A stretch of DNA of 64,000 bases from Myxococcus hansupus. GTDB lineage: Bacteria; Myxococcota; Myxococcia; Myxococcales; Myxococcaceae. Below are positions 43,820 to 58,249 of this stretch, piece after piece. Every line of letters starts with the position of its first letter. Within the stretch, counting starts at the first letter, position 1. Location of the stretch: positions 6,034,501 to 6,098,500 of the forward strand of contig NZ_CP012109.1 in NCBI RefSeq assembly GCF_000280925.3, given 5' to 3'. The notes beneath the pieces were generated by a model. The model worked only from the letters and a program-made list of their open reading frames with translations, made no database searches and was not told the origin of the DNA. A program made the translations under genes and the position numbers.

Positions 43820-43882
43820 TCCCTCGTTGTTGGGGGGTGCTCTTGAAGCGCCCCTCCGCCTAGAGTCGCCCGGGCCTTGGTG

Positions 43883-45238
43883 ATGCGCCGATTCTTCCTG
43901 CTCTCGTTGTTGCCCGCGCTGGTGCTGCTCGTCGCGCCGGGCTGTCCGCTCGACATCCGAGTTCGCTGTGACGAGCCCGGGGACTGCCCCCAGGACTTCG
44001 TCTGCGTACGCGGGGACTGCGAGCCCGCGACCCCTGAGCGGATCGGCGCGGCCTGTGACACGGCGGCCCACTGCGGTCCGGGGCTCACGTGCGGCACGGG
44101 GTTTCCGGGCGGGTATTGCCTGCTGGCGTGCTCCGAGGCGACGCCCTGCCCCCAGGGAAGCGTGTGCGCGACGGAGCTGGGACAGTGCCTTCGGACGTGT
44201 GGCGAGACATGTACCCGGCCGGGGTACGGCTGTGGGCCGGTGCCCAATGCGTCCGGCCCCCTGAGGGCCTGTGTCCCAGTGACAACGCCGCCGGATGGCG
44301 GCTGCACGGATGCGGGGTGCGAGATACCGGATGGCGGCTGCACCGGCGCTGGCTGCGAGGGGCCCGATGGCGGCTGCACCGGCGCGGAATGCGAAGGGCC
44401 CGATGGCGGCTGCACCGGCGCGGAATGCGAAGGGCCCGATGGCGGCTGCACGGGCCAGGGATGCGAAACGCCGGATGGAGGGTGCTCCGGCGAAGGATGC
44501 GAGGCGCCGGACGCTGGCTGCTCGGGGTCCGGCTGCGAAACACCGGACGGAGGATGTTCGGGCCTGGAATGCGAATCGCCGGATGCAGGCTGCTCAGGCC
44601 CGAGCTGCGAACCACCGGACGCGGGCTGCTCAGGCCCGGGCTGCGAGTCGCCGGACGCGGGCTGCTCAGGCCCGGGCTGCGAGTCGCCGGACGCGGGATG
44701 CACGGGCACGGGTTGTGGGCAGCCGGACGCGGGATGCGCGAGCACGGTGCCGGTGGGAGGCGCGTGCACGCGGCCCTGCGAGTGCGCAGACGCCGCGGCG
44801 GCCTGTGTCAGTGGGACCTGCACGCTGACCTGCTCGACGGACTTCACGTGCCGCGACGGGCGGCGGTGCACAGATGGTCAGTGTGTCGTCGGGGCCCGAA
44901 TCGGAGAGCCGTGTCGAGACACCTTCGATTGCCCCGACTTCGCCTCCTGCCCCAGGGAGCGGATGCGGTGCGAGGAACGGTGCAACCCAGGTTCGGGCCT
45001 CTGCGAAGCGGGGTACCAATGCGCTCCAGACTCGGTGTGCGTGCAGGCGTGCTCGGGGTCCCCGGCCTCGGTGGGAGATGACTGCGAGAACTCGCTGGAT
45101 TGCTCGCCCTGTAGCGTCTGCCTGACGTCAGGGGCGGCACTGCGGTGCCGGCAGCCCTGCCGGCTGGACCGGGACTGCCCTGGAGGGGCGGCAGGCTCCT
45201 GCGAACAGGTGGGCAGCACGAGGGCCTGTCGGCTGTAG
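43883..45238 (+). CDS. Repeat-rich Cys lipoprotein (12-residue PDGGCTGxGCEx repeats)
   Basis: A 451-residue lipoprotein (lipobox APGC, Cys21). After an N-terminal Cys-knot region (CDEPGDCPQDFVCVRGDC, CPQGSVCATELGQC) come twelve tandem copies of a 12-residue unit PDGGC[TS]GxxCEx plus a partial thirteenth (about 137-285), then another set of Cys knots (CSTDFTCRDGRRCTDGQC, CPDFASCPRERMRCEERC). Each unit places two cysteines five residues apart, predicting a stiff disulfide-stitched rod. ATG 43883 was chosen; TTG 43877 and GTG 43880 lie just before it. The next gene, a kinase, starts 54 bases later. Confidence 0.8.
   Translation: MRRFFLLSLLPALVLLVAPGCPLDIRVRCDEPGDCPQDFVCVRGDCEPATPERIGAACDTAAHCGPGLTCGTGFPGGYCLLACSEATPCPQGSVCATELGQCLRTCGETCTRPGYGCGPVPNASGPLRACVPVTTPPDGGCTDAGCEIPDGGCTGAGCEGPDGGCTGAECEGPDGGCTGAECEGPDGGCTGQGCETPDGGCSGEGCEAPDAGCSGSGCETPDGGCSGLECESPDAGCSGPSCEPPDAGCSGPGCESPDAGCSGPGCESPDAGCTGTGCGQPDAGCASTVPVGGACTRPCECADAAAACVSGTCTLTCSTDFTCRDGRRCTDGQCVVGARIGEPCRDTFDCPDFASCPRERMRCEERCNPGSGLCEAGYQCAPDSVCVQACSGSPASVGDDCENSLDCSPCSVCLTSGAALRCRQPCRLDRDCPGGAAGSCEQVGSTRACRL
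44291..44737 (+). repeat. Tandem 36-bp coding repeats in the Cys-rich rod protein
   Basis: Twelve consecutive 36-base units starting CCGGATGGCGGCTGC (later units CCGGACGCGGGCTGC) plus the beginning of a thirteenth. The last two full units are nearly identical, a sign of recent expansion or homogenisation. Confidence 0.85.
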
Positions 45239-45291: not shown

Positions 45292-47235
45292 ATGACGGGT
45301 GAAGTGCTTGCGGGCCGCTACCGACTCGAACGGGAGTTGGGGCGTGGGGGAATGGCGACGGTCTTCCTGGCAATGGACCTGCGGCTGTCTCGCCCGGTGG
45401 CACTGAAGCGGATGCATCCAGGAGGCGGCTCGGGACGCGCGGAGCGCTTCCGGCGTGAAGCCGAACTGGCCGCCTCGCTCCATCATCCCAATGTCCTGGA
45501 GGTCCACGACTACGGCGAGGACGAGGCGCATGGCCCATTCCTCGTCTGCGAGTGGGTGCGCGGCGAGGACCTCCGCGCGCTGGCGGGGAAGCTCTCCCCC
45601 GTGCCGCCCGAAGCGGTGCTGGTGCTGGGCTGGGAGCTGGCCCGGGCGCTGTCCGCGGCGCACGCCCGAGGCATCGTCCACCGCGACGTGAAGCCCGACA
45701 ACGTGTTGGTGGCGGAGGGCGGCCCGCTGAAGCTGGCGGACTTTGGCCTCGCCGCGCTGGAGGACCAGGAGCGACTCACGAGCACCGGCGCGGTAACGGG
45801 CTCCCTGGCGTACATGGCGCCCGAGCGCATCGACACGGGCGCGTACTCGCCCGCCTCGGATGTGTACGCGGTGGGAGTCATCCTGTACGAGCTGTGCTCG
45901 GGCACCACGCCGCACGCGGGCAAGGGCGCGGCGCACCTGGTCGCGGCGGTGATGACCAAGGACGCGCCGCCGCTGACGGAGGTGGCACCGGGGACGCCCG
46001 AGCCGCTGTCGACACTGGTTGCCAGGTGCCTCGCGAGGGATGCGCGGGACAGACCGCGCGACGGGGCCGAGCTGGCAGCGGCGCTGGAGGCGCTGCTTCA
46101 GCGGGAGGCCGGCCCACCGGCGGACGTGACACGGGAGTTCCTGAGGGCCCCGGTGGCCCGTGCAGCCCACTGGCGTCGCGCACGCTTCGAGCGGCTGCTG
46201 GAGGAAGGACGCGGACTGCTGGCGCGCGGCGAGGGGGCTCGGGCCGCCAAGGTGCTCAACGCCGCGCTGGCACTGGAGCCCACGTCCTCCGAGGTGGTCG
46301 CGCTGTTGCGTGAACGGCCGAGGCGTTCTGGCTGGAAGGCTGGCGCTGTGGGTGCGGGGCTCGCGCTCTGCGCGGCGACGGCCTGGGCATGGTGGAGCAC
46401 AAGCGCCGAAGACGCAGGGACGCCGCGTGGCACGGAGTTCCCGACAGGGATGACGGCCTCCGTTGACGGCGCATCTCCTGGCGAACGGCCGACAACGCCC
46501 TCGGCACCGGAGCCATCTGCCCCCGCCACGAGCCCTGGCCTGATGGAGGATGCAGGGGCACCGGCGACTTCCGAGGGAAGTGAGACACCCAAGTCAGCCG
46601 CGACGTTGCCGCCGGCAGAACAAACGACAACCCGTGACACGGAGAAGCCAGCCCGGCCATCCGCGTCGAGTGGGCGTTCAGGAGTCCTGGACCCCACGAA
46701 GCGGGCAGCAGCCTCCGCCCCACCCCGGCGGTCCGAGGGAAACGAGCCTCCAGGGGCATCGGGGCCTACGGCATCGGCGCCCGGGCCAGACGCGGCGCCT
46801 ACTGTGGCCGCGCGTCCCGCCCTGATGAAGGTGACAGCGCGTCCGTGGGCGGAGGTGTTCGTGAACGGCACGAGCCACGGCTACACGCCTCGCGTTCGTG
46901 AAATCTCGCTGCCAGCGGGGACGCACCGGCTGCGCTTCGTCAATCCCTTGTGTGACGAGGTCGAGCAAGTGGTGACGCTGACCGCAGGAGAGACGGCGAC
47001 GCGCGACGTGGTGCTGTCGCCACGCAAAGCGGAGGTACTCATCCGCGCGCCCGCGGGTGCACGGCTCTTCGTGGATGGCCGAGAGGTGGGCGTCGCGCCC
47101 CTCTCCGGTCCGGTGGTGGTCGAGCATGGGAGACACACGGTGACGGCACGCCGCGCGGGCGCGCCTCCCTTGCAACGAGAGGTGGATGTGGTCGCGGGTC
47201 GTCGGCTCGAAGTGGCGCTGGACGTGACGCCATGA
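45292..47235 (+). CDS. Membrane Ser/Thr protein kinase with two extracytoplasmic PEGA domains
   Basis: A 647-residue Pkn2-type kinase. Kinase domain about 9-290: Gly-loop GRGGMATVF (17-25), Lys39, catalytic HRDVKPDN (Asp132, Asn137), Asp150 in DFGLA, APE at 176-178. A transmembrane helix lies at about 350-368 (AGAVGAGLALCAATAWAWW), then a Pro/Ser/Thr-rich spacer, then two PEGA domains at about 509-577 and 578-647 (PWAEVFVNGTSHGYTP; GARLFVDGREVGVAPL). PEGA domains bind surface structures outside the membrane. The stop overlaps the next ATG (ATGA), so the two are coupled. A natural phospho-input for the FHA activator at 41082 (inference). Confidence 0.95.
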   Translation: MTGEVLAGRYRLERELGRGGMATVFLAMDLRLSRPVALKRMHPGGGSGRAERFRREAELAASLHHPNVLEVHDYGEDEAHGPFLVCEWVRGEDLRALAGKLSPVPPEAVLVLGWELARALSAAHARGIVHRDVKPDNVLVAEGGPLKLADFGLAALEDQERLTSTGAVTGSLAYMAPERIDTGAYSPASDVYAVGVILYELCSGTTPHAGKGAAHLVAAVMTKDAPPLTEVAPGTPEPLSTLVARCLARDARDRPRDGAELAAALEALLQREAGPPADVTREFLRAPVARAAHWRRARFERLLEEGRGLLARGEGARAAKVLNAALALEPTSSEVVALLRERPRRSGWKAGAVGAGLALCAATAWAWWSTSAEDAGTPRGTEFPTGMTASVDGASPGERPTTPSAPEPSAPATSPGLMEDAGAPATSEGSETPKSAATLPPAEQTTTRDTEKPARPSASSGRSGVLDPTKRAAASAPPRRSEGNEPPGASGPTASAPGPDAAPTVAARPALMKVTARPWAEVFVNGTSHGYTPRVREISLPAGTHRLRFVNPLCDEVEQVVTLTAGETATRDVVLSPRKAEVLIRAPAGARLFVDGREVGVAPLSGPVVVEHGRHTVTARRAGAPPLQREVDVVAGRRLEVALDVTP

Positions 47236-47990
47236 TGGGCGCTGCGTTGATGATGTGGATGCTCGCGGCGTCCCCGCTCGACGGGGCGCGCAGCGCCTAC
47301 CAATCCGGCGAGTTGCCCAAGGCTCGCGCCGAATTGGAGTCCCTGCTCTACCCGCTGCGGCTCGACGGCGACGTGTTGGAAGCGGAGGCGCACCTGTTGC
47401 TCGCGGCCACCTACCACGCCCAGGAAGAGCTGGCCCGCGCGGAAGATGAGGTGGTGCGAGGACTCGCCGTTCACGGCGGCACAGTGCTGGACCCGCTGCT
47501 CTATCCGCCGGACTTCCTCGCGTTCGTCGAGAGAGCGCGCGCCCAGCACCCGGCACGCATCGAGGAACTGCGCGCCGAGCGGCGGCCTCGGCTGTTCCCG
47601 CCGCCCACCCCGCTCCGCGCGGAAGCGGCCCCCAACGCCCCGGTAATGACCCGTGCCTGGTACCTGGTGCCTCTGGGTGTGGGGCACTTCAAGCACGGGC
47701 GCTCGGGGATGGGCACCGTGATGGCGGTGACGCAGGGGCTGGGCCTCGCGACGGCGGGCATCTCCCTGGGAACGGCTCTTTCGATGCGCGGGCCAGACGG
47801 CCGCTATAGCGCGCGCGACGAGGGCAAGGCGCGCACGCTCAACGTGACGTACCTGGTAGGGGCCTATGCCTTCGCGGTGGCCTATGCGTATGGCGTCCTG
47901 GATGGCACGGTGTTGACGTCTGCCCAGCCGGTCATCCCGCGAATTGAACAGCGGGGGGCATTTCGTTCGTGCCTTCGGGCAAGCGCGTGA
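47232..47990 (+). CDS. Membrane protein coupled to the PEGA kinase
   Basis: A 252-residue protein that overlaps the kinase by four bases. Signal-like N-terminus, then TPR-like helices (LDGARSAYQSGELPKARAELESLLY; VLEAEAHLLLAATYHAQEELARAEDEVVRGLAVH) at about 15-90. Two or three membrane helices follow (about 145-235: GMGTVMAVTQGLGLATAGISLG and YLVGAYAFAVAYAYGV). This fits the partner proteins found next to PEGA kinases in myxobacteria. Function unknown. Confidence 0.75.
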   Translation: MMGAALMMWMLAASPLDGARSAYQSGELPKARAELESLLYPLRLDGDVLEAEAHLLLAATYHAQEELARAEDEVVRGLAVHGGTVLDPLLYPPDFLAFVERARAQHPARIEELRAERRPRLFPPPTPLRAEAAPNAPVMTRAWYLVPLGVGHFKHGRSGMGTVMAVTQGLGLATAGISLGTALSMRGPDGRYSARDEGKARTLNVTYLVGAYAFAVAYAYGVLDGTVLTSAQPVIPRIEQRGAFRSCLRASA

Positions 47991-48020
47991 CCTCTCCCGG
48001 CCCACCCACGGAGCCTGGCC

Positions 48021-50875
48021 CTATGGAGCAGCCATCCGCTCCAGGACGCGCGCGGCGATGTCGTCCGGTGAGTGCAGCGAAGTGTCCACCACGAGGTCAT
48101 ACCCTCCCGGGTCGAGCAGCGCAGCGGCCGCATCGGGGCCCGCGATTTTCGCCAGGTTGGCCAGGTCGGTCACATCGCGCGCCGCGAGCTGCTCGCGCAC
48201 TTCGTCCCCTGTTCCCGGTGCGTCGCCCTCGGCGTGCCGTGTAAGTACCCGCCGAGCACGCTCCTCCAATGGGCATTCGAGCAGCACCCGCAGGACGCGG
48301 CCACCTCGTCGCTTCAGCTCCGGCTCCCATCGAGACACCACCCAAGGTCCGAAGAAGCTGTGGGTGAGTGCGCCCCCGCGAGAATGCGTTCCGCTTGAAG
48401 ACCGTCGAGGAATGCATCCAGCTCCCGCGCGGCACTGGCACTGAGTGACGTACCGTAGCGCTGCACGCTGTCGAAGCCCCGGACCGCCGACATCCGTCGC
48501 TTGAGGTCCCCAACATTGTACGCGCGCAAACCCACCGCGATGGCCAGCCGCTCCGCCAGCGTGTTCTTCCCCGCGCCGTGCCGCCCTCCAATCACGACAG
48601 TCCAAGGGGCCTGCACCACCGCGCCGCCCGCACGCGTCTCCACCTTGCCCGGAAGCCTGCCCTGATAGACGCGAAGCAGCTCCTCCGCCGACTCGCGTGA
48701 CTGCGCCTCCAAGAAGCGAGCGCTGGCGACCTGGAAGGCCCTGCGCCGGGGTGCGTCGTCCGGTGAGATGCCGTGGCTGGCGAGCACGTTGCCCATCCCC
48801 GGCGCCTGCCGCTCCTTCGGCGACTCGAGCACGTCCACCGCCTCCTCCACCGAACGCAGCGGGTCCACCATGTCGAGCACCTCCGCCCCCCTCGACACGT
48901 TCGCCCCGGAGATGCGCACCGCCTTGAGCCTCACGAACAGCCCCGGAAGCAGCGCGCCGTTCATCTCCCGCTGCACGTCGTCCAGAAACGCCAGCACCTC
49001 CTCGGCGGACGCGGGACAGGCGAGCCACACCTGAACCTTGTCTGGCGGTGCCCTCGCGATGCGCACCCGTTCGCGCCACCCCGGACGCAGGTGGCGGAGC
49101 ACCGCGGCCGCCACCAGTTGGATGGCCTCCGAGCCCGCGTCGAAGCCATAGAACTCATTCACCGCCATGATGCGCGCGCCCATCCGCACGCCCCGATGCA
49201 CGGGTCCCCACTTGATGGGACGGTGCTCCTGCTCCTCGAAGCGCTCCGAGGTGTACGCGCTGTCCGTGAGCTGGAGGAACGTGTCCTCCGGTCCCAGCCC
49301 CACCCCGAGCAGCTCGCCCTCCAGCGCCTCCTGACACAAGAGCCCCGTCACCGGGTCCCGCAGTTCCCTCGCCACGGCCAGAGCGCCATCCGCGTGGAGC
49401 CAGCGCAGCAGGGAGCTCGCCTCGGGCTTCAGGATGGCCGAGTCGGACTCCCCTGCCTTCACGTCCTCCGGTGGATGCTCCACCAGGACGATGCAGTCGC
49501 GGCGCATCTTGGCCCGCTTGCACAACGACGTGGCCAGCGCCATGGCCTCGGCGAAACACTCCTGCGCGGGGCCACGTGACTTCGGCACGGGCGTCGCCCC
49601 AATGGACAGCGTCGGCGCCCAGAGGGCACCGTCCTGGAACGAATGGACCTGCACGTCCACGCCCTCCCCATGGCGTGCCCGAAGCCGCTGCTCCCAGAGG
49701 TGCCGTGTCGCCGCGGCGTCCAACTCCGGGCGCTTCCAGACCAACAGCTTCAGCCCACCCTCCGGCTCGGAGAACCAGGCGGCCACCGAGGCCAGTCCCC
49801 CCACGTCCTGCTCCCCCCCATCCACGCCCGTCACGCGCAGGACGGCCAGTTCGTCCGTCAGGTTCCGCGCGGACTCACGCATGGACGCCAGCGTGCGACC
49901 AAACTCGGCGGCCGTGGCGCCCGGGCGAGAAATGACGCCGAACTCGTCTCCCGAGAGGTAGCGGAAGAAGCTCGCACCATCACGCTGGGCCACCAGGTCC
50001 AGCCGCTCGAAGAGCCGCCGAATCATCCCGTGACTCTCATCGCCCACGAGACGGCGGCCGTAGAGACGGTTGAGGCACTGAAGCTTGTCGATGTCGCCCA
50101 TGGCCACCCACAGGCCCCCTGCCCCCGCGCGCCCACGCTCGGTGAAGACGCGCTGACCGTCCAGGCGTTGCGCCGTGGCCGCGCCCCGGAGCGCGTGGCG
50201 GTAGAGCGGCTCCAAGGCCTCCTCCGACACGCGGGTGTGCACCGCCAGCGCCACACCCGTCTCCTCGTTCCAAGCGAGGAGTTCGTGAGGCACGTTCTCC
50301 ACCAGCAGGTGCTCGAGGATGTCCCACGCCAGCTCCCCGACTGCGTCCGCCGTGTCACCCTTCACCACCACCGCGCCATGCCGCCAGCCCCGCACCAATC
50401 CGGCCGAGGCGTGCCCACGTTGCACCGGCAACGCCAGAGGCGTCCGCGTCGTGCTGACGAAGACGCGCAGCGGCTCCACCCCCTGCCCCAACCGGACTTG
50501 AAAGTGAGCGGACTCGCGGCCCTCGGGTGACAGACGTGCCGTCCATGCCGTGCCCTGCCGCGCCTCCACGTAGCCCAGCACCTGGGCGAGCCGGGCCCGC
50601 GTGAGGTGGTGTCCCCAGGGGGCCCTCGGAAAGAGGACGTGCTGCGGTCCTCCTCGGTCAGCCCCGTGCGGAACCACCCCGAAGACGTCCGAGCCCAAGC
50701 GGACCTCCTCGATGCCCGGGCCCATGGCACACCAGGAACAGCCCTCCACGGGCCCGTGAGGCAGCAGGGCTTCGCCAGGGAGCGGCGCGGGCTCGCGCTC
50801 CGGTGTGGCGTGCGGGGTCAGGTGCGGTGGGAGTGAAGGAGGAACGGAGGCGGCGGAGACCGAGGGCTCGCTCAT
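48021..50875 (-). CDS. GGDEF-domain protein fused to a cytidylate-kinase-like P-loop domain (frame change at a five-C run)
   Basis: The reading frame from ATG 50875 gives: an unknown N-terminal region (about 1-240); a GGDEF domain with active-site Ser308-Gly-Asp310-Glu-Phe in RYLSGDEFGV, a functional-looking variant of GGDEF; a degenerate second GGDEF-like copy (about 545-660, VRMGARIMAVNEFYGFDAG); and a P-loop kinase (about 755-835, VVIGGRHGAGKNTLAE, Lys770). At the C5 run 48373-48377 coding bias moves to the +1 frame, which continues the kinase (THSFFGPWVVSRWEPELKR, VLLECPLEERARRVL) to the stop at 48021. Intact product about 950 residues. The start overlaps the MFS stop by four bases. Confidence 0.75.
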
Positions 50876-52113
50876 GAGGTGGGGGCTCCGGGTTCAACGT
50901 TGACGGCGGGCGGTGCGGGCACGGCAGACGGGCGGTGCAATGCGAGCAGCGCCAGCGGGATGAGGCCCGCCACGACGACGAAGAGGCCCTCCGCGCCAAA
51001 AGCCGCTGCCAGGGAGTGGCGATCCGCCAGCACACCGAACAGCGGTGAGAGCGCCATCAGCACCAGACTCTGAAAGAAGCCCGCGAAGGACATCACCGTG
51101 GCGCGGTGCGAGGAGGGTGTGTCCCGGTGGATGGCGTCGTTGACCAGCGGCCGAACCAGTCCACTGGTGACCTGACTGATGAGGATGATGGCCACGCCCA
51201 CGAGGCTCGTCGTCCACGCGAGGAAGAAGTAGTGCGCCGCCAGCAGCACGGGGATGGTCAGCAGGGCCAGCGACTCCCCCAGCCACTTCGCCAACCGGTG
51301 CGCGTTGCGCGCCGCCACCGCGCTGGACACCATCCACACGAAGTAGATGGCCCCGAAGAACTTCAGGTCCACCCCCGCGTCGTGCATGTACGGCTGCGAG
51401 AACTTGAAGCCCGTCAACATGGCCGCGCCCATGAAGCCGGAGAAGAGGACGAGGTAGCGGATGGAGCCGCTGTTCCACACCACGCCCGCCGCGTGACGCA
51501 TGTGCGCCACCGAGGGCTTGTCTCGTGTGGAGCGATGGTGCGGTGGCTCGCGGAACGTCAGTGCCACGGCGAGCGCCGCCACGGAGCCCAGCAACGTGAG
51601 CAGCACGGGCAGCCGCAGCGACACCTCCGCCGCCGCCCCGCCGATGAGCGAGCCCACGCCCATGCTCCCCAACCGGTAGGACCACGCCTTCCCTTCGTGC
51701 TGACGGTACTCGGCCTCGCGCCCCAGCGACTTGAGCGTGTCGTAGAGGAAGGCGGAGTCCGACCCCGACTCGAAGGCCAGGTGGATGCCCAACACGGCCG
51801 ACGCGAGGATGAAGACGCCCACGCCGTCTCCGAGGAGGAACAGGGCGAGGAAGACCACCTTGCTCACCGCCGCGATGAGCAGCGCGTACTTGCGGCCCCA
51901 GCGGTCCGCGACCACGCCGCTGGGCACCTCCAGCGCGAACTGAAAGACGGACTGCACCACCACGAGCAGCATGATCTCGCCGTAGGTCAGCCCGCACGCC
52001 TGGTAGTACAGGATGGCGACCGGGAACCAGAAGCTGAGCGTGGACAGCAAGGAGTACGCGTAGAAGCGTGGCACGTTGGGCGCCAGCAGCGGCGCCGGGC
52101 TGATTGAGGACAC
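50872..52113 (-). CDS. Major facilitator superfamily transporter
   Basis: A 413-residue protein with twelve predicted helices. FAYSLLSTLSFWFPVAILYYQACGL opens helix 1; the MFS signature between helices 2 and 3 is VPSGVVADRWGRKYALL (about 60-76, DRxGRK). A second-half motif appears in GVLADRHSLAAAFGAEG. Substrate unknown; by position it would move the product or substrate of the desulfurase/HIT/kinase genes. GTG start at 52113; stop overlaps the next gene (ATGA). Confidence 0.85.
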   Translation of the reverse strand: MSSISPAPLLAPNVPRFYAYSLLSTLSFWFPVAILYYQACGLTYGEIMLLVVVQSVFQFALEVPSGVVADRWGRKYALLIAAVSKVVFLALFLLGDGVGVFILASAVLGIHLAFESGSDSAFLYDTLKSLGREAEYRQHEGKAWSYRLGSMGVGSLIGGAAAEVSLRLPVLLTLLGSVAALAVALTFREPPHHRSTRDKPSVAHMRHAAGVVWNSGSIRYLVLFSGFMGAAMLTGFKFSQPYMHDAGVDLKFFGAIYFVWMVSSAVAARNAHRLAKWLGESLALLTIPVLLAAHYFFLAWTTSLVGVAIILISQVTSGLVRPLVNDAIHRDTPSSHRATVMSFAGFFQSLVLMALSPLFGVLADRHSLAAAFGAEGLFVVVAGLIPLALLALHRPSAVPAPPAVNVEPGAPTS

Positions 52114-52144
52114 GGAAGCTCCCGGGGGCGGTCGAAGGACGGTT

Positions 52145-53311
52145 TCAGCCAGCGGCGATGAGGGACTCGGGCGAGGTCGCGGCGAGACGCAGCTCCCACG
52201 CCTGGACGACGCAAGCGGCGACCTGCACGGGCGTCAGCCCCGCGGTGTCCACGTGCCGCTCCTGCCATGAACTTCCGGCGGGCCGTGCGGCGCCCTCCGA
52301 CAACCGGACCACCAGCCCCGCGCCGGGCACCCTTGGCGCGACCGCGGGCCGCGTGTCCGCGAGCACACTGGGACTGGCGCGGAGAACGGCTTGGAGCAGA
52401 CCGTCCAGTTGCGCCCAGACACCAGGGTCCCTCGCGAGTTGCTCCTCTCGGGCCAGCAGCTCGGGCGAGGCGGACTCCGCCGCGGAGTCGTCGAGCCCGG
52501 GCCTCACCGCCCCCCGCTCCACGGCGCGGGAGAGCGCCGCGACCACCGAAGGCAGCAATTGACCGGGCGAAAGGGTTTCGTGGTGAGCCACGCGCCTCAA
52601 CAATGCCTGGGGCCGCACCAACGCCCAGCCCAGGCGCTGGGCGACCTCCCGGGCGGCCGCTTCGACGAGACCCGGCTCGCGCCCCGTCACGACGCAGGAA
52701 CGTGCCGGCGTCGCGGGAACGCCCAGCAGCCGGATGGACTCCTCGTTCGTCTCGCGGTGCTCGGAGGGCGGCGCATCCAGCGGCACCCACCGCGTGTTGC
52801 GCTCCTCCAAGACGCGGTGCAGCTCCGAGCGCACGAAGTGCCTGCGCACGTGGCCTCCGCCAAAGCCCCAGGTGGCGCCGGGCAGGGGCCCCGACTCCTG
52901 GTACACATAGCGGTCCGTCTCCACGAGCTGCTCCGCGGCCGGTCGGGTGCCGAGCCTCGAGATGAAGCCCGTGCGCTCCACGAGGTCGCACGAGATAGGG
53001 ACCACGTGCGCGTGGGCATGGGTGTCACCCCGGTCCGCGCAGTGGAAGCGGCAGATGGCGGAGCGGCCGTGCTCGTAGACGCCCACCTCGCCGAACACCG
53101 CGTGGACACGCGCGGCGGCCTCCTGCTGGGCCAGGCGCAGGCGCAGGTACTCCAGGCCGTCGAGGTCCTCGGCGGAGGGGACATGCGACTCGGACACCAC
53201 CAGGACGTGGCCGACGAGCGCCGGCCGCGCGTCACACAGCACGCGCGCGCCGGGCAGGGTGAACAGCACCCGCTCATGACCGGCGATGCGACAGAAGGGA
53301 CACTCACTCAC
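52145..53311 (-). CDS. HIT-domain protein fused to a degenerate cytidylate-kinase-like domain
   Basis: A 388-residue fusion. Residues 1-165 are a HIT domain: a zinc-type CPFC (4-7), VLCDARPALVGHVLVVSESHV and the catalytic triad-like His98-x-His100-x-His102 in THAHAHVVP, then GFGGGHVRRHFV. HIT enzymes hydrolyse or transfer nucleoside phosphates such as AMP. Residues about 205-388 follow the cytidylate-kinase-like pattern (SCVVTGREPGLVEAAAREVAQRLG, ending HVDTAGLTPVQVAACVVQAWELR), but the P-loop is GREPGLVE and lacks the GKS/T, so it is probably inactive. GTG start overlaps the desulfurase stop as GTGA. Confidence 0.85.
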   Translation of the reverse strand: MSECPFCRIAGHERVLFTLPGARVLCDARPALVGHVLVVSESHVPSAEDLDGLEYLRLRLAQQEAAARVHAVFGEVGVYEHGRSAICRFHCADRGDTHAHAHVVPISCDLVERTGFISRLGTRPAAEQLVETDRYVYQESGPLPGATWGFGGGHVRRHFVRSELHRVLEERNTRWVPLDAPPSEHRETNEESIRLLGVPATPARSCVVTGREPGLVEAAAREVAQRLGWALVRPQALLRRVAHHETLSPGQLLPSVVAALSRAVERGAVRPGLDDSAAESASPELLAREEQLARDPGVWAQLDGLLQAVLRASPSVLADTRPAVAPRVPGAGLVVRLSEGAARPAGSSWQERHVDTAGLTPVQVAACVVQAWELRLAATSPESLIAAG

Positions 53312-54573
53312 GGCCGGACTCCTTCACGGGCGCGAGTGGGCGCCGCGTTACCTCGTGTGGAAGGCAGGCGGGCCTCCTCGACGGCCCGGACGATGTGCTC
53401 AGCGGTGGCGTCCACCTCCTCCTGCGTGGTGAAGCGGCCCAGCCCCAGGCGCAGGCTGGCGTTGGCCAGGTCCTCCGACACGCCCAGCGCGAGCAGCACG
53501 TGGCTGGGGCGCAGGCTGGTGGACATGCAGGCCGAGCCCGTGGAGAAGGCCACGTGGTGCTGAAGCCGCTCGATGAGCAACTCCCCGTCCACATCCTCGA
53601 AGCTGATGTTGAGATTGCCGGACAGCCGGTGGTCCAGGTCGCCGTTGACGTGGAGCCCCTGGAGCCGCTCACGCAAGGTGTCGAGCAGGCGCGTGCGCAA
53701 TCGCAGCAGGCGGACGCCCTCCTCTTGCATCTCCGCCATGGCGAACTCGCAGGCGGAGCCGAGCGCGACCAATTGATGCACGGGCAGCGTCCCCGCGCGC
53801 ATGCCACCCTCCTGCCCGCCTCCGAGCAGCAGCGGGGCCAACCGCCCCCGCGAGGCACGGGGCCCCACGTACAGCGCGCCAATCCCCTTGGGCGCGTAGA
53901 GCTTGTGGCCCGACAGCGACAGCAAGTCCACGTGGAGGGCGCGCACGTCCAACGGCATCTTTCCGCACGTCTGGGCCGCGTCCGTATGAAAGAGCGCCCC
54001 CTGCTCGCGGCACAGCCGGCCAATGGCCGCCACGTCGTTGAGGACGCCCGTCTCGTTGTTGGCGTGCATCACACTGACCAGGAGCGTGTGGGGCCGCAGC
54101 ACGGCCCGGACGTGCTCCTCGCGCACGCGCCCATCACGAGGCACGCGCAGCACCGTCACCTCACACCCCTGCCGCTCCAACCAACGTACCGGCTCCAGCA
54201 CCGACTTGTGCTCGATGGCCGTGGTCACCACGTGACGGCGGGCCTGCCGGCTCGCCTGGAAGACGCCCAGCAACGCCAGGTTGTTGCTCTCCGTGGCGCC
54301 GCTGGTGAAGACCACCTCATCGCGCTCCGCGCACAGGAGTTCCGCGACCCGCGCGCGTGCGATGTCCACCGCCCCCTCGGCTTCCCAGCCATAGGCATGC
54401 AGCCGGCTGCCGGAGTTGCCGAAACGCTCGACCAGATACGGCAGCATCGCCTCCGCCACGCGTGGATCGCAGGGCGTTGTCGCATGGTGATCCAGATAGA
54501 TGGGGCCACGGACTCGCGCTGGCGCGCGCGCGTCGGTGGCCGAAAGCTGGGTTGAGGCCCTGCCTGGCTCCAT
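53308..54573 (-). CDS. Cysteine desulfurase (IscS/NifS/DndA-like)
   Basis: A 421-residue PLP enzyme that takes sulfur from cysteine. Signatures: IYLDHHATTPCDPRV, GATESNNLALLG, MHANNETG, FHTDAAQTCGK, PLP lysine Lys224 in SLSGHKLYAPKG, and the sulfur-carrying Cys349 in FSTGSACMS. The short spacing around the catalytic Cys places it in group I with IscS, NifS and DndA. No iscU, iscA or dnd genes lie nearby, so a dedicated rather than housekeeping role is likely. The ATG at 54573 has GGGGGAG upstream. First gene of a four-gene operon. Confidence 0.9.
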   Translation of the reverse strand: MEPGRASTQLSATDARAPARVRGPIYLDHHATTPCDPRVAEAMLPYLVERFGNSGSRLHAYGWEAEGAVDIARARVAELLCAERDEVVFTSGATESNNLALLGVFQASRQARRHVVTTAIEHKSVLEPVRWLERQGCEVTVLRVPRDGRVREEHVRAVLRPHTLLVSVMHANNETGVLNDVAAIGRLCREQGALFHTDAAQTCGKMPLDVRALHVDLLSLSGHKLYAPKGIGALYVGPRASRGRLAPLLLGGGQEGGMRAGTLPVHQLVALGSACEFAMAEMQEEGVRLLRLRTRLLDTLRERLQGLHVNGDLDHRLSGNLNISFEDVDGELLIERLQHHVAFSTGSACMSTSLRPSHVLLALGVSEDLANASLRLGLGRFTTQEEVDATAEHIVRAVEEARLPSTRGNAAPTRAREGVRP

Positions 54574-54907
54574 GATGCTCCCCCCCGGGACGCAAATCGC
54601 AATGAATGTGTCTGACCCGTGCCTGCCCGCAAAGAGATACAGCAAAGACTTTGAAAACTCCAAATCCCTGACTGACCACCCGCGTCAGTCTTTTGAGACG
54701 CAATGCGGTAGTTTGGCAATGCCTCTCGGTGATGCACTGGAATTTTCAAAACCCACTGGGCGGCTCGACGCAGAGGGCCATCCGCCCCACCCTCAAAACA
54801 TCAGACACGGACAGCCCGTAACGCCGTGCCAGCCCTGCCTGGATGTCGAAACACCGGCTAGGATGTGGCGGCGGTAGAGGCGCCCATGAGGTGAGGAGTC
54901 GAACGAC
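54574..54907. other. Divergent intergenic region with inverted repeats
   Basis: 334 bases, much more A/T-rich than its surroundings, between the desulfurase operon (minus) and a membrane protein gene (plus). It contains a perfect dyad GACTGAC-7-GTCAGTC (54670-54690) followed by TTTT on the plus strand, and a near-inverted pair CTTTGAAAACTCC (about 54648) and GGAATTTTCAAAAC (about 54740). These could be operators of the desulfurase operon. Consensus promoters not convincing. Confidence 0.4.
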
Positions 54908-55459
54908 GTGAACGGTCCGGACAGTGGAATGGCCCTGGGGGTAGGGCTCGGCATGTTGCTGTTGTTGGTGGTGGGAGGCGCCGTCGGATTCGGCGCCGCC
55001 CTGCTCATCAAGAAGCTCTTCAACCTCTCGATGCTCGCGGCGGTCGGCGTCGGCGTCCTGCTGGTGGTGGTGGGCGGAGTCGGACTGTTCGCCGTGGTGT
55101 TCGACGACCTGACCTCCACGTGGTGGGCCGCTCGAACCGCGAAGCCGGTGCACTTCACCGTGCCCAAGGGCTTCCACGGCCAGTTCCACCTCGTCTTCGA
55201 TCCGAACGGACCCGCCGTCAACGAGGTGAAGGGCAAGCTCGAGGTGCCGGTCGGTGAGGCGCGGGTGCAGAAGGTGAAGGCGGGTGTGGGGCTCGACAAC
55301 GACTACGCCCAGTTCGAAGCCCACGACACCGAGGGTACGCCCGTTGACGTGTTCCTCGACTCGAGCGGCAGCCAGAATGGCCTCGCGTACCGCGGGTTCT
55401 GGTTCGGCGACCAGACGGGGCGGACCTACGGCGAGTCGCCCATCCTGCCGCCAGAGTGA
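54908..55459 (+). CDS. Membrane protein of unknown function with exposed C-terminal domain
   Basis: A 183-residue protein. Two adjacent membrane helices lie at about 8-35 (LGVGLGMLLLLVVGGAVGFGAALLI) and 42-66 (MLAAVGVGVLLVVVGGVGLFAVVF), followed by a soluble beta-rich domain of about 110 residues (HFTVPKGFHGQFHLVFD; EARVQKVKAGVGLDNDY). The GTG start at 54908 has a GAGG region upstream. No family recognised. Confidence 0.65.
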   Translation: MNGPDSGMALGVGLGMLLLLVVGGAVGFGAALLIKKLFNLSMLAAVGVGVLLVVVGGVGLFAVVFDDLTSTWWAARTAKPVHFTVPKGFHGQFHLVFDPNGPAVNEVKGKLEVPVGEARVQKVKAGVGLDNDYAQFEAHDTEGTPVDVFLDSSGSQNGLAYRGFWFGDQTGRTYGESPILPPE

Positions 55460-55476
55460 AGGGAGCGGATGGGCGG

Positions 55477-55493
55477 GCGGTGGCCACCACCGC
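55477..55493 (+). terminator. Possible hairpin after the membrane protein gene
   Basis: GCGGTGG / CCACCGC, 7 bp with a 3-base loop, 18 bases after the stop codon and upstream of the convergent helicase gene end. Confidence 0.4.
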
Positions 55494-55579
55494 GCAGCGC
55501 GCATGATGCCGGTGGGCTTCAGGGCCAGGTCACGACCCTGAAGCGAGCTGCGTGGTGAGCGCCCTGCCCGCTCGGCACG

Positions 55580-58249
55580 TCAACGCCGCCGTCCGCCGCG
55601 CCCTGGCCGTCTTCCATTCCGGGGTGCCTTGCCTTGATGGCCCCGGTTTCCGCCAGGCCTGGGCGCGCCACGCTCCCGGTCCTGCCGAGGGAGCGGACGC
55701 TCACGGGTGGCCTCGGCAATCTCGTCCGGCATCCAGGGCCGGTCGAGCAACTCCTGAAGCTCAAGGAGCGAGCGAGCCTCGACCACGCCCCGCCGGCCCC
55801 GAGCCACGCTGAAGCGCGGAGGCCGGTCGAACGCCGGCAACTCCTCCTCCACCAAGGTGCGCGCGAGCTTCTCTGGGAGCTGCAGCCGCACCACGCCTCG
55901 CGGGGCTCCGTCCTGCAGCACCTCCACGTCGTACTCGAGTGGAACCGCCTGCTCCCGCACCAATACAGCGTCCGGGAGTGCCAGGAGCGCCTGACGTGTC
56001 GCGGGCGGCACGAGCGCGTCCAAGTCGAGCCGCAGCGGGCGCGCCTTGAAATCATCGAGCGTGTCCACCCCGTCCAGTTGCGCCTCGTAGAGCGCGGTCA
56101 GCTCCGGGAGTCCCAGCGGCGCGGTGGCCCCGCCCGAGCGTCGCCACAACTCGCGCACCTGGGCGATGGCGACGCGGTGACGGTCCACGGCGGGATGGGG
56201 TGCCTCGCCCTGCGCCAGCGCCTCGGCGAGCGCATGCCGGACCGCCTGGGCGAGCTCCGGCCCCCAAGCGCGCAGCACCTCGAACTCTCGTTCGAGCTCG
56301 AAGCCGAAGAAGTCCACCCGCGTCTCGAGCACGATGGAACGAAAGCGCGCGTCGTAAGCGGGCGCCGCCGAGTGGCGCCCGGCGTAGCGACGCAGCAGGG
56401 ATTGCGGCAGGTGGGTGCCTTCGATACCCGCTTGCGAGTCACCATTGCGGTCAGCGAAGTAGCGCAGGGTGCCCGCCACCGCGCCCAGGTTGCCGCACAC
56501 GCTCGTCTTCGACACGCGCGCGACCTCGCCCCAGGCGGTGCGTTCGTCGAGGACCAGGTCGAAGGGCATGTAGCGCGCGAGCAGGTCGCAGAACCGCCGA
56601 TGGACCCGTGAGTCCGCGTAGGGCATGCGCGCGGGCAGCGCCAGCCCCACGCTCCGGTACACGCTCGCCATCGCGAGCGCCGCGTCCTCCAGGGCCTTCA
56701 CCAGCACCCCACGGACCTCCGCCCAGGCCACGAGCTTCTCCGCGTCAAAGACGTGGCGCGGCAACCCCTGCACCTCCCCCACCGAGCCCGCTTCACGGAA
56801 GGCATCGGCGTAGAGGTTGTACGCGGTCAGGTGGTCGCTGCCCGTGACGAGCAGCCCCTCCAGGTTCCGCTCCTCGCGCGTCATCCGGTGCAGGGAATCC
56901 ACCGAGCTGCACACCGCGAGCACCGGCAGCAAGGCGTCCTCCCCGTTGACGATGAGCTCCGCCCACGGACGCTCCACGGGCAGGGACTCCACCGCGCGGC
57001 CGTAGTCGGACAGCCGCCCTTCCGCGTCCACGATGTTGCGCGCCTGCAGCTTCGCGAGCGCCCGGCGATAGGCATTGCGGTCCAGCGGCACGGGCAGGTC
57101 CAGCTCGTCCGCCCGCACGCCCAGGGCCGCGGCGGTGAGCGCCACCCGCTCCGGCTCGCCCGCGAGTTGGAACTCGGGCTCGGTGGGCCGAAGCGAAGCG
57201 AAGTGCAGCGGGCGGTCGCTCAGGATGAAGACACGCCCGCCCTCCACCCGCCCGTGCACGCGCCCCGCCATCTGCAAGAGCTCGTTGTTGCCCAGGTGGA
57301 CGCGGGTGAGGACGTTTCGGCCGCGCTCCACCAGGTTCGTGAAGCGCATGTCATCGATGACGACCGTGTCCAGTCCCGGCACGTTGAGCGCGCTCTGCCC
57401 CGCCGCCGTCATCGCGAGCACGAAGGGCCGAGGCGCCGTGCCCTCCAGGAAGGGGCGGATGGCGCGCAGCGGTTCGCCGCCGTGGTAGTGCGCCGCGTGG
57501 ACCTCCGGCGCGGACGCGCGGACGTGGGCCGCCGCCTCCTCCACACCCGCGCGCGTGGCCAGGAACACGCCCACGCCGCGTCCCTGCTGCTGCACGTCCT
57601 CCAGGAAGTCATCGTCGAGGAAGGACAACGGCTGACGGCGCGCCACCTCCACCTGGGCCGCCTTCCTCGGGTCGAAGGAGGTCACCTGGAGCACGTCCGC
57701 GCTGTCCAGGTAGCGCGCGTAGAAAGCCGGGTCCACGGTGGCGGACAGCCAGATGAAGCGGCAGCCCACGCGCTTGCCCAGGGCCAGACACAGCTCCAGC
57801 TCGGCGGAGGTCTGGTGAATCTCATCGACGATGAGCGTGTCCTCGCGCTGAATGGCGCCCACCTGGAACCAGCGCCGCGCGATCCCCGTGGTGACGATGA
57901 CGACGTCCGCCAGCGGCGTCTCCGCGGTGGCCTCCCGCTCGCGGTTGACCACCGCCACCCGCAGGGGCCGCCGGCCCACGATTTCCTCCGCGATGGGCCG
58001 GATGGCGAGCGTCTTGCCAGTGCCCGTGCCCGCGACGATGCCGAACCCCTGCCCGCTCCGGGCCAGCTCGCGGAGGCGCTCGCCGTGGTGTTCTTCCAGG
58101 TAGGTGCGCAGCTCCAGCCCCACCGCCAGCTCGATGGTTTCACACGCGGCGCGCGTGGGCGCGATGACCACCACCCGCCCCCGAGGAGGCGTGACGGAGG
58201 AGGAATCGCCGGGGCGCGGCGGCAGGTATCGGTCGGTGGGCGTACGCAC
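55580..58249 (-). CDS. HrpB-like DEAH-box RNA helicase
   Basis: An 889-residue superfamily 2 helicase. Motifs seen: I GTGTGKT (Lys79), II DEIH (142-145), III SAT (169-171), and VI QMAGRVHGR at about 326, which has one more residue than the usual QxxGRxGR. The remainder resembles HrpB, with a winged-helix and OB-like C-terminal half. The last 35 residues are an Arg/Gly-rich basic tail, likely RNA-binding. Used in RNA remodelling. The GTG at 58249 is a guess at the start; there is no strong ribosome site and the frame is open upstream. Confidence 0.85.
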   Translation of the reverse strand: MRTPTDRYLPPRPGDSSSVTPPRGRVVVIAPTRAACETIELAVGLELRTYLEEHHGERLRELARSGQGFGIVAGTGTGKTLAIRPIAEEIVGRRPLRVAVVNREREATAETPLADVVIVTTGIARRWFQVGAIQREDTLIVDEIHQTSAELELCLALGKRVGCRFIWLSATVDPAFYARYLDSADVLQVTSFDPRKAAQVEVARRQPLSFLDDDFLEDVQQQGRGVGVFLATRAGVEEAAAHVRASAPEVHAAHYHGGEPLRAIRPFLEGTAPRPFVLAMTAAGQSALNVPGLDTVVIDDMRFTNLVERGRNVLTRVHLGNNELLQMAGRVHGRVEGGRVFILSDRPLHFASLRPTEPEFQLAGEPERVALTAAALGVRADELDLPVPLDRNAYRRALAKLQARNIVDAEGRLSDYGRAVESLPVERPWAELIVNGEDALLPVLAVCSSVDSLHRMTREERNLEGLLVTGSDHLTAYNLYADAFREAGSVGEVQGLPRHVFDAEKLVAWAEVRGVLVKALEDAALAMASVYRSVGLALPARMPYADSRVHRRFCDLLARYMPFDLVLDERTAWGEVARVSKTSVCGNLGAVAGTLRYFADRNGDSQAGIEGTHLPQSLLRRYAGRHSAAPAYDARFRSIVLETRVDFFGFELEREFEVLRAWGPELAQAVRHALAEALAQGEAPHPAVDRHRVAIAQVRELWRRSGGATAPLGLPELTALYEAQLDGVDTLDDFKARPLRLDLDALVPPATRQALLALPDAVLVREQAVPLEYDVEVLQDGAPRGVVRLQLPEKLARTLVEEELPAFDRPPRFSVARGRRGVVEARSLLELQELLDRPWMPDEIAEATRERPLPRQDRERGAPRPGGNRGHQGKAPRNGRRPGRGGRRR

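Follow-up and report, generated by a model that had tools for sequence, protein, structure and literature searches.

Organization of the four-gene operon

What function could bring a cysteine desulfurase, a histidine triad (HIT) protein, a transporter of the major facilitator superfamily (MFS) and a GGDEF/kinase protein together in one transcription unit? The question is raised by a locus of Myxococcus hansupus located in a 64,000-nucleotide stretch of DNA (contig NZ_CP012109.1, positions 6,034,501 to 6,098,500), hereafter the window. The locus consists of four minus-strand genes that occupy window positions 48021–54573 and are closely packed from stop to start (Table 1). The desulfurase and HIT genes overlap by GTGA, the HIT and MFS genes are separated by 31 bases, and the MFS and GGDEF genes overlap by ATGA. 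The overlaps and a gap of 30–31 bases are also present in a second Myxococcus genome (G107).

This layout agrees with the first-pass annotation of the window. The gene families named there are likewise recovered: the desulfurase matches PF00266 with 267 bits, the transporter matches MFS_1 (PF07690) with 83.7 bits, the HIT protein has a full triad, and the last gene gives a weak GGDEF and a weak P-loop kinase match. No RNA element was found for the operon, and no convincing sigma-70 promoter candidate precedes it. Elsewhere in the window, a predicted lipoprotein-like gene on the plus strand (43877–45238) contains about a dozen 36-base tandem repeats that encode Cys-rich PDGGC-type units.

Table 1. 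Features of the operon in window coordinates.
Feature	Position	Strand	Remarks
Group I (IscS/NFS1-type) cysteine desulfurase	53308..54573	-	421 aa, ATG at 54573
Predicted catalytic Cys349 codon, in STGSACMS	53527..53529	-	predicted from sequence; invariant among relatives
HIT protein, 388 aa	52145..53311	-	HIT domain ~1-110; predicted diverged CMP-kinase-type domain ~200-388
Histidine triad HAHAH of the HIT domain	53006..53020	-	H98, H100 and H102 invariant (4 orthologues)
MFS transporter, 413 aa, drug-efflux (DHA1)-like	50872..52113	-	PF07690, 83.7 bits
GGDEF-GGDEF-kinase gene, open part, 853 codons	48314..50875	-	cut off early by a frameshift
SGDEF signature of the first GGDEF-type domain	49940..49954	-	invariant (5 sequences)
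Walker A GGRHGAGKNT of the CMP-kinase-type domain	48560..48589	-	predicted from sequence; PF13189 above cut-off in intact orthologues
Frameshift site, run of five G	48373..48377	-	window one base shorter than relatives
Remainder of the kinase domain, other frame	48021..48372	-	aligns to profile positions 828-945

The cysteine desulfurase and the transporter

The desulfurase belongs to the aminotransferase class V proteins and, within these, to the group I cysteine desulfurases. The SGHK(L/F)YAPKG motif, which contains the PLP lysine, and the catalytic cysteine loop STGSACMS are both invariant, as expected of group I. A longer frame starting from a TTG codon extends to position 54663.

A complete iscS-iscU-iscA-hscB-hscA-fdx operon is located elsewhere in the genome (G000:2216000–2228000). 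The operon desulfurase aligns with the housekeeping IscS of the genome at 53% identity and lacks the C-terminal tail DMSPLYEMAKEGIDLKSIEWTAH that is present in IscS. The tail is missing in all three operon desulfurases compared. The C-terminal tail of IscS binds IscU. Given the separate standard isc operon and the missing IscU-binding tail, the operon enzyme is, judged from its sequence, not the housekeeping IscS, and the possibility that it serves as the only IscS of the genome, considered in the first-pass annotation, does not apply. M. xanthus has a comparable isc operon (PMC9973013). No Fe-S genes are found beside the operon desulfurase, and the reading frames around the operon bear out the annotation that neighboring dnd genes are also absent.

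The MFS transporter is 77–96% identical among the relatives. Its best NCBIfam matches are the Tet and HP1165 efflux families, below cut-off, and the nearest solved structure is that of NorA (E 1e-3). The protein thus looks like a drug exporter, and export is the predicted direction of transport. MFS relatives at the 30% level in other genera were considered as kin of the operon and rejected, their gene contexts being unrelated.

The HIT protein and its kinase-like domain

The HIT domain scores 19.9–21.3 bits in Pfam, just under the cut-off of 21.5, but its histidine triad is complete and profile comparison with the HIT family gives 94.7%. The C-terminal domain contains no P-loop or Walker A motif and is detected by profiles only. 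Comparison with (d)CMP kinases in hhalign gives 19% over 163 columns, against less than 3% for controls. In HMM searches against (d)CMP kinases, three of the four orthologues score at a level reached by only 0–1 of 500 shuffled sequences. These profile matches mark the domain as a diverged member of the CMP-kinase type that lacks a P-loop. A match of the same region in another genome (G044) was rejected as chance; the locus there contains no kinase gene.

The first-pass annotation held that the same kinase-like domain occurs in two proteins of the operon. The claim stands in that both domains score as (d)CMP-kinase-like. However, the copy in the HIT protein lacks Walker A and emerges from profiles only. 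Direct profile comparison of the two domains gives 1.9%, which is too weak to be informative, and only known CMP kinases serve as a useful reference.

The tandem GGDEF/CMP-kinase protein

The product of the last gene contains, in order, an N-terminal domain of ~200 residues, two GGDEF-type domains, and a CMP-kinase-type domain. The first GGDEF-type domain is below the Pfam cut-off and weakly related to known diguanylate cyclases, with a value of 78.6% in comparison with the GGDEF profile. It keeps SGDEF, D257, N265, and D275, but the usual lysine of DxDxFK is missing. Cyclic-dinucleotide-like control, as suggested in the first-pass annotation, is on the evidence of this domain hypothetical. 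The second GGDEF-type domain is degenerate. Its profile value is 29.6%, and 0–1 of 500 shuffles score as high in the five sequences. The first-pass annotation named a GGDEF and a P-loop kinase domain and overlooked the second, degenerate GGDEF domain.

The kinase domain matches PF13189 (Cytidylate_kin2) above cut-off in the intact orthologues, and its Walker A motif is invariant; in the window its frame is broken. Matches of this domain in other families are mostly ordinary adenylate and (d)CMP kinases. A 351-residue P-loop protein in a distant genome of the phylum (G192; locus L057, 1231–2286, minus strand) weakly resembles it. The GGDEF and kinase assignments are tentative, as they rest on weak profile matches.

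The N-terminal domain has no match in Pfam, in profile comparison, or in HMM searches judged against shuffles. Two candidate identities were rejected. A GalT/DUF4922 (VTC2-like) domain, suggested by eye from CxWC, HVLFPR, and AHFQ, gives 0.8% in profile comparison. A degenerate HIT domain gives 0.3% and is ordinary relative to shuffles. AlphaFold models of the HIT and GGDEF proteins have a mean pLDDT of 39 and 38, respectively, too poor for a fold search; the alignments contained three to four close sequences. The papers searched contain no description of a tandem GGDEF-type and CMP-kinase-type combination.

Distribution and conservation

Orthologues of the HIT protein occur in 4 of 145 genomes of the order, namely M. 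hansupus (G000), G107, G056, and G065. GGDEF orthologues are found in six, the additional ones being G067 and G055, the latter a remnant; within Myxococcus, 2 of 27 genomes carry the gene. All four genes are complete and in the same order in G107 and in G056, a member of the Citreicoccus group. Two Corallococcus contigs are partial: that of G065 stops just ahead of the desulfurase, and that of G067 starts inside the GGDEF gene. G055 shares the insertion site of G056 but retains only the end of the GGDEF gene, truncated and with internal stops. Neighborhood comparison therefore supports the expectation of the first-pass annotation that the four genes stay together in other genomes.

When 195 genomes of the phylum were searched with profiles, no further true relative emerged, and plasmids, phages, and viral contigs contain none except one 47-residue HIT fragment. 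A scan of ~85,000 species with two short peptide patterns, which distant relatives can escape, returned the operon loci and none beyond. The records carry the names Corallococcus sicarius, Corallococcus sp. CA053C, ‘Comamonas’ sp. KCTC 72670, and Citreicoccus inhibens. The record titled Comamonas sp. KCTC 72670 (BNCN01000011.1, locus L067), which belongs to G107, is a myxobacterial sequence assigned to the genus of the window, and its title looks wrong. The four-gene set is uncharacterized and so far known from a few myxobacteria only.

Gene order and content are constant across three genera, while the flanks are unrelated. No fifth conserved gene was seen alongside the four. The dN/dS ratios are 0.12–0.23 across all four genes, which on these substitution patterns are under purifying selection. 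The conserved order and content with different flanks, together with this selection, indicate that the operon is more than a chance assembly. The HIT triad, SGDEF, Walker A, and the desulfurase cysteine are invariant among the relatives. Invariant columns make up 79% of the HIT domain, 88% of the core of the first GGDEF-type domain, and 78% of the P-loop half of the kinase, compared with 40% of the pseudokinase. The predicted catalytic domains are thus far more constrained than the degenerate ones, and conservation tracks predicted catalysis.

In Myxococcus, the operon occupies a variable site (window 47232–55580) that is flanked by a TPR gene and a DEAD-type helicase gene. Two other genomes, G106 and G118, contain other genes at this site, including one for a serine-hydrolase-like repeat protein. 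From this distribution, the four-gene set is an accessory operon that has been gained or lost more than once. A small membrane protein gene (window 54908–55459, plus strand) adjoins the operon. It is missing in most Myxococcus genomes and stands alone at other sites in a few.

A proposed pathway and its alternatives

The first-pass annotation proposed a dedicated pathway. The proposal remains reasonable, since the genes are co-conserved, another IscS is encoded in a separate isc operon, and the tail that binds IscU is missing from the operon enzyme. We tentatively suggest, with less than even confidence, that the operon serves to produce a small molecule that contains sulfur and derives from a nucleotide, and to export it. 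The desulfurase would draw sulfur from cysteine and carry it as a Cys349 persulfide, and the CMP-kinase-type domain with the P-loop would phosphorylate a substrate resembling a nucleotide. Together with its degenerate partner in one chain, the first GGDEF-type domain may bind and condense or activate a nucleoside triphosphate. The HIT enzyme could cleave or transfer an intermediate of the nucleotidyl type (NMP-X), for which its kinase-like C-terminal domain would provide docking or binding, and the MFS protein would export the product. HIT enzymes are known to act on nucleotides that bear sulfur (PMC8775712), in keeping with this scheme. The chemistry is inferred, and so is the sequence of steps with its sulfur acceptor and product. 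The main gap in the proposed pathway is that the operon encodes no sulfur transferase of the ThiI, TtuA, MnmA, or ThiF type, which leaves the sulfur without an evident acceptor. A literature search found no paper joining a cysteine desulfurase, a histidine triad protein, and GGDEF.

In a bolder version, the 947-residue protein would be a new nucleotide-condensing enzyme, composed of an active GGDEF palm, a degenerate one, and a nucleotide kinase. Its sulfur-bearing product, trimmed by the HIT protein and exported by the MFS protein, would act as a secreted signal or antibiotic. We regard this version as very doubtful.

The main alternative is a signaling or defense system, as SGDEF proteins can be active cyclases. 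A nucleotide signal, cyclic or linear, would come from the tandem GGDEF protein and be degraded or edited by the HIT protein, and the desulfurase and transporter would form the output, for example against phages. The patchy distribution, the variable insertion site in Myxococcus, and the loss by deletion in one relative are in keeping with such a role. The key GGDEF residues are retained, and an SGDEF or AGDEF signature is compatible with cyclase activity (PMC3974145). In addition, nucleotide-signal defense systems built on GGDEF-related polymerases are reported to exist (PMC12657218). On the other hand, for a defense role, including one of the CBASS or Panoptes type, PADLOC gives only generic DndA and SspA matches of the desulfurase, the operon contains no toxin-like or membrane-killing effector, and plasmids, phages, and viral contigs hold no relative beyond the HIT fragment. 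An efflux-type MFS protein would also be unusual for a defense system. On balance, we consider this role unlikely.

Salvage or detoxification is a further alternative. The MFS protein would handle a foreign, sulfur-bearing, nucleotide-like compound, the HIT protein would hydrolyze it, the kinase would feed the nucleotide back into the pool, and the desulfurase would manage the sulfur. The accessory nature of the operon fits this role, and kinases with the CMP-kinase-type fold take part in nucleotide salvage. HIT enzymes remove sulfur from nucleoside phosphorothioates, as in human HINT1, which yields the nucleotide and H2S from nucleoside 5'-O-phosphorothioates (PMC8775712). However, a desulfurase takes its sulfur out of cysteine, as would be expected for supply more than for disposal, and the GGDEF-type domains are left without a role. 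A salvage function therefore appears rather improbable.

Should the proposed synthesis and export hold, this conserved and selected gene set would tie sulfur from cysteine to the chemistry of nucleotides in a bacterial group that is known for its natural products.

The frameshift in the last gene

The first-pass annotation treated 48021–50875 as one open frame. In M. hansupus this is not the case, owing to the frameshift at 48373–48377. The frame ends after 853 codons, at 48314, and what remains of the kinase domain is read in another frame down to 48021. Codon comparison with the window shows that G107, G056, G065, and G067 each have one continuous frame across the site. The intact orthologues in loci L032 and L033 are single frames of 947–953 residues. 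Past the frameshift, identity to G107 is 82% and dN/dS, with this part translated in its own frame, is 0.185, similar to 0.224 for the part ahead of the frameshift. The frameshift is therefore, on these ratios, either a recent event or an assembly error.

A decaying relic, with once-useful genes now under drift and a pseudogene operon in the window, would account for the frameshift and for the truncated remnant with internal stops in G055, but is quite unlikely given that the other copies are intact and that all four genes, including the kinase part past the frameshift, show purifying selection. For the proposed synthesis and export of a sulfur-containing molecule, the loss of the kinase frame means that the pathway is probably off in this M. 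hansupus strain, unless the frameshift is an assembly error.

Comparison with known systems

The operon shares single components with several known systems. The isc operon has a desulfurase of the same group I fold and catalytic loop (53% identity), but also has scaffold, carrier, and chaperone genes that the four-gene set lacks along with the IscU-binding tail. With the Dnd and Ssp systems it shares desulfurase matches to the PADLOC models of DndA (515 bits) and SspA (513 bits). However, the enzyme is under the NCBIfam cut-off for DndA (435 versus 480) and resembles IscS/NFS1 structures more than those of DndA or SspA. The reading frames in the window and at L032 and L033 include no dndBCDE or sspBCD partners.

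The HIT protein has the CxxC and the full HxHxH triad of HIT/HINT hydrolases, and differs from them by the fused, P-loop-less CMP-kinase-like domain and by its score below the Pfam cut-off. The first GGDEF-type domain has the DxD, Asn, GD, and S-GDEF residues of diguanylate cyclases. The operon protein departs from these enzymes in the missing DxDxFK lysine, the degenerate second copy in tandem, and the CMP-kinase-type fusion.

The closest parallel in logic is provided by the tgs/ycf 6-thioguanine operons of Staphylococcus chromogenes and Erwinia amylovora, which are analogous rather than homologous. The tgs operon, for which the logic is proven, combines a cysteine desulfurase with nucleotide enzymes and an efflux protein (PMC7994395). 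Its desulfurase is of the SufS type, its sulfur transferase is TtuA-like, and it further includes NUDIX hydrolases and an EmrE-type pump, none of which is found in the four-gene set; nucleotide alpha-hydrolase sulfur transferases and NUDIX proteins are missing from it altogether. In the place of the tgs enzymes stand the predicted HIT, GGDEF, and CMP-kinase-type domains.
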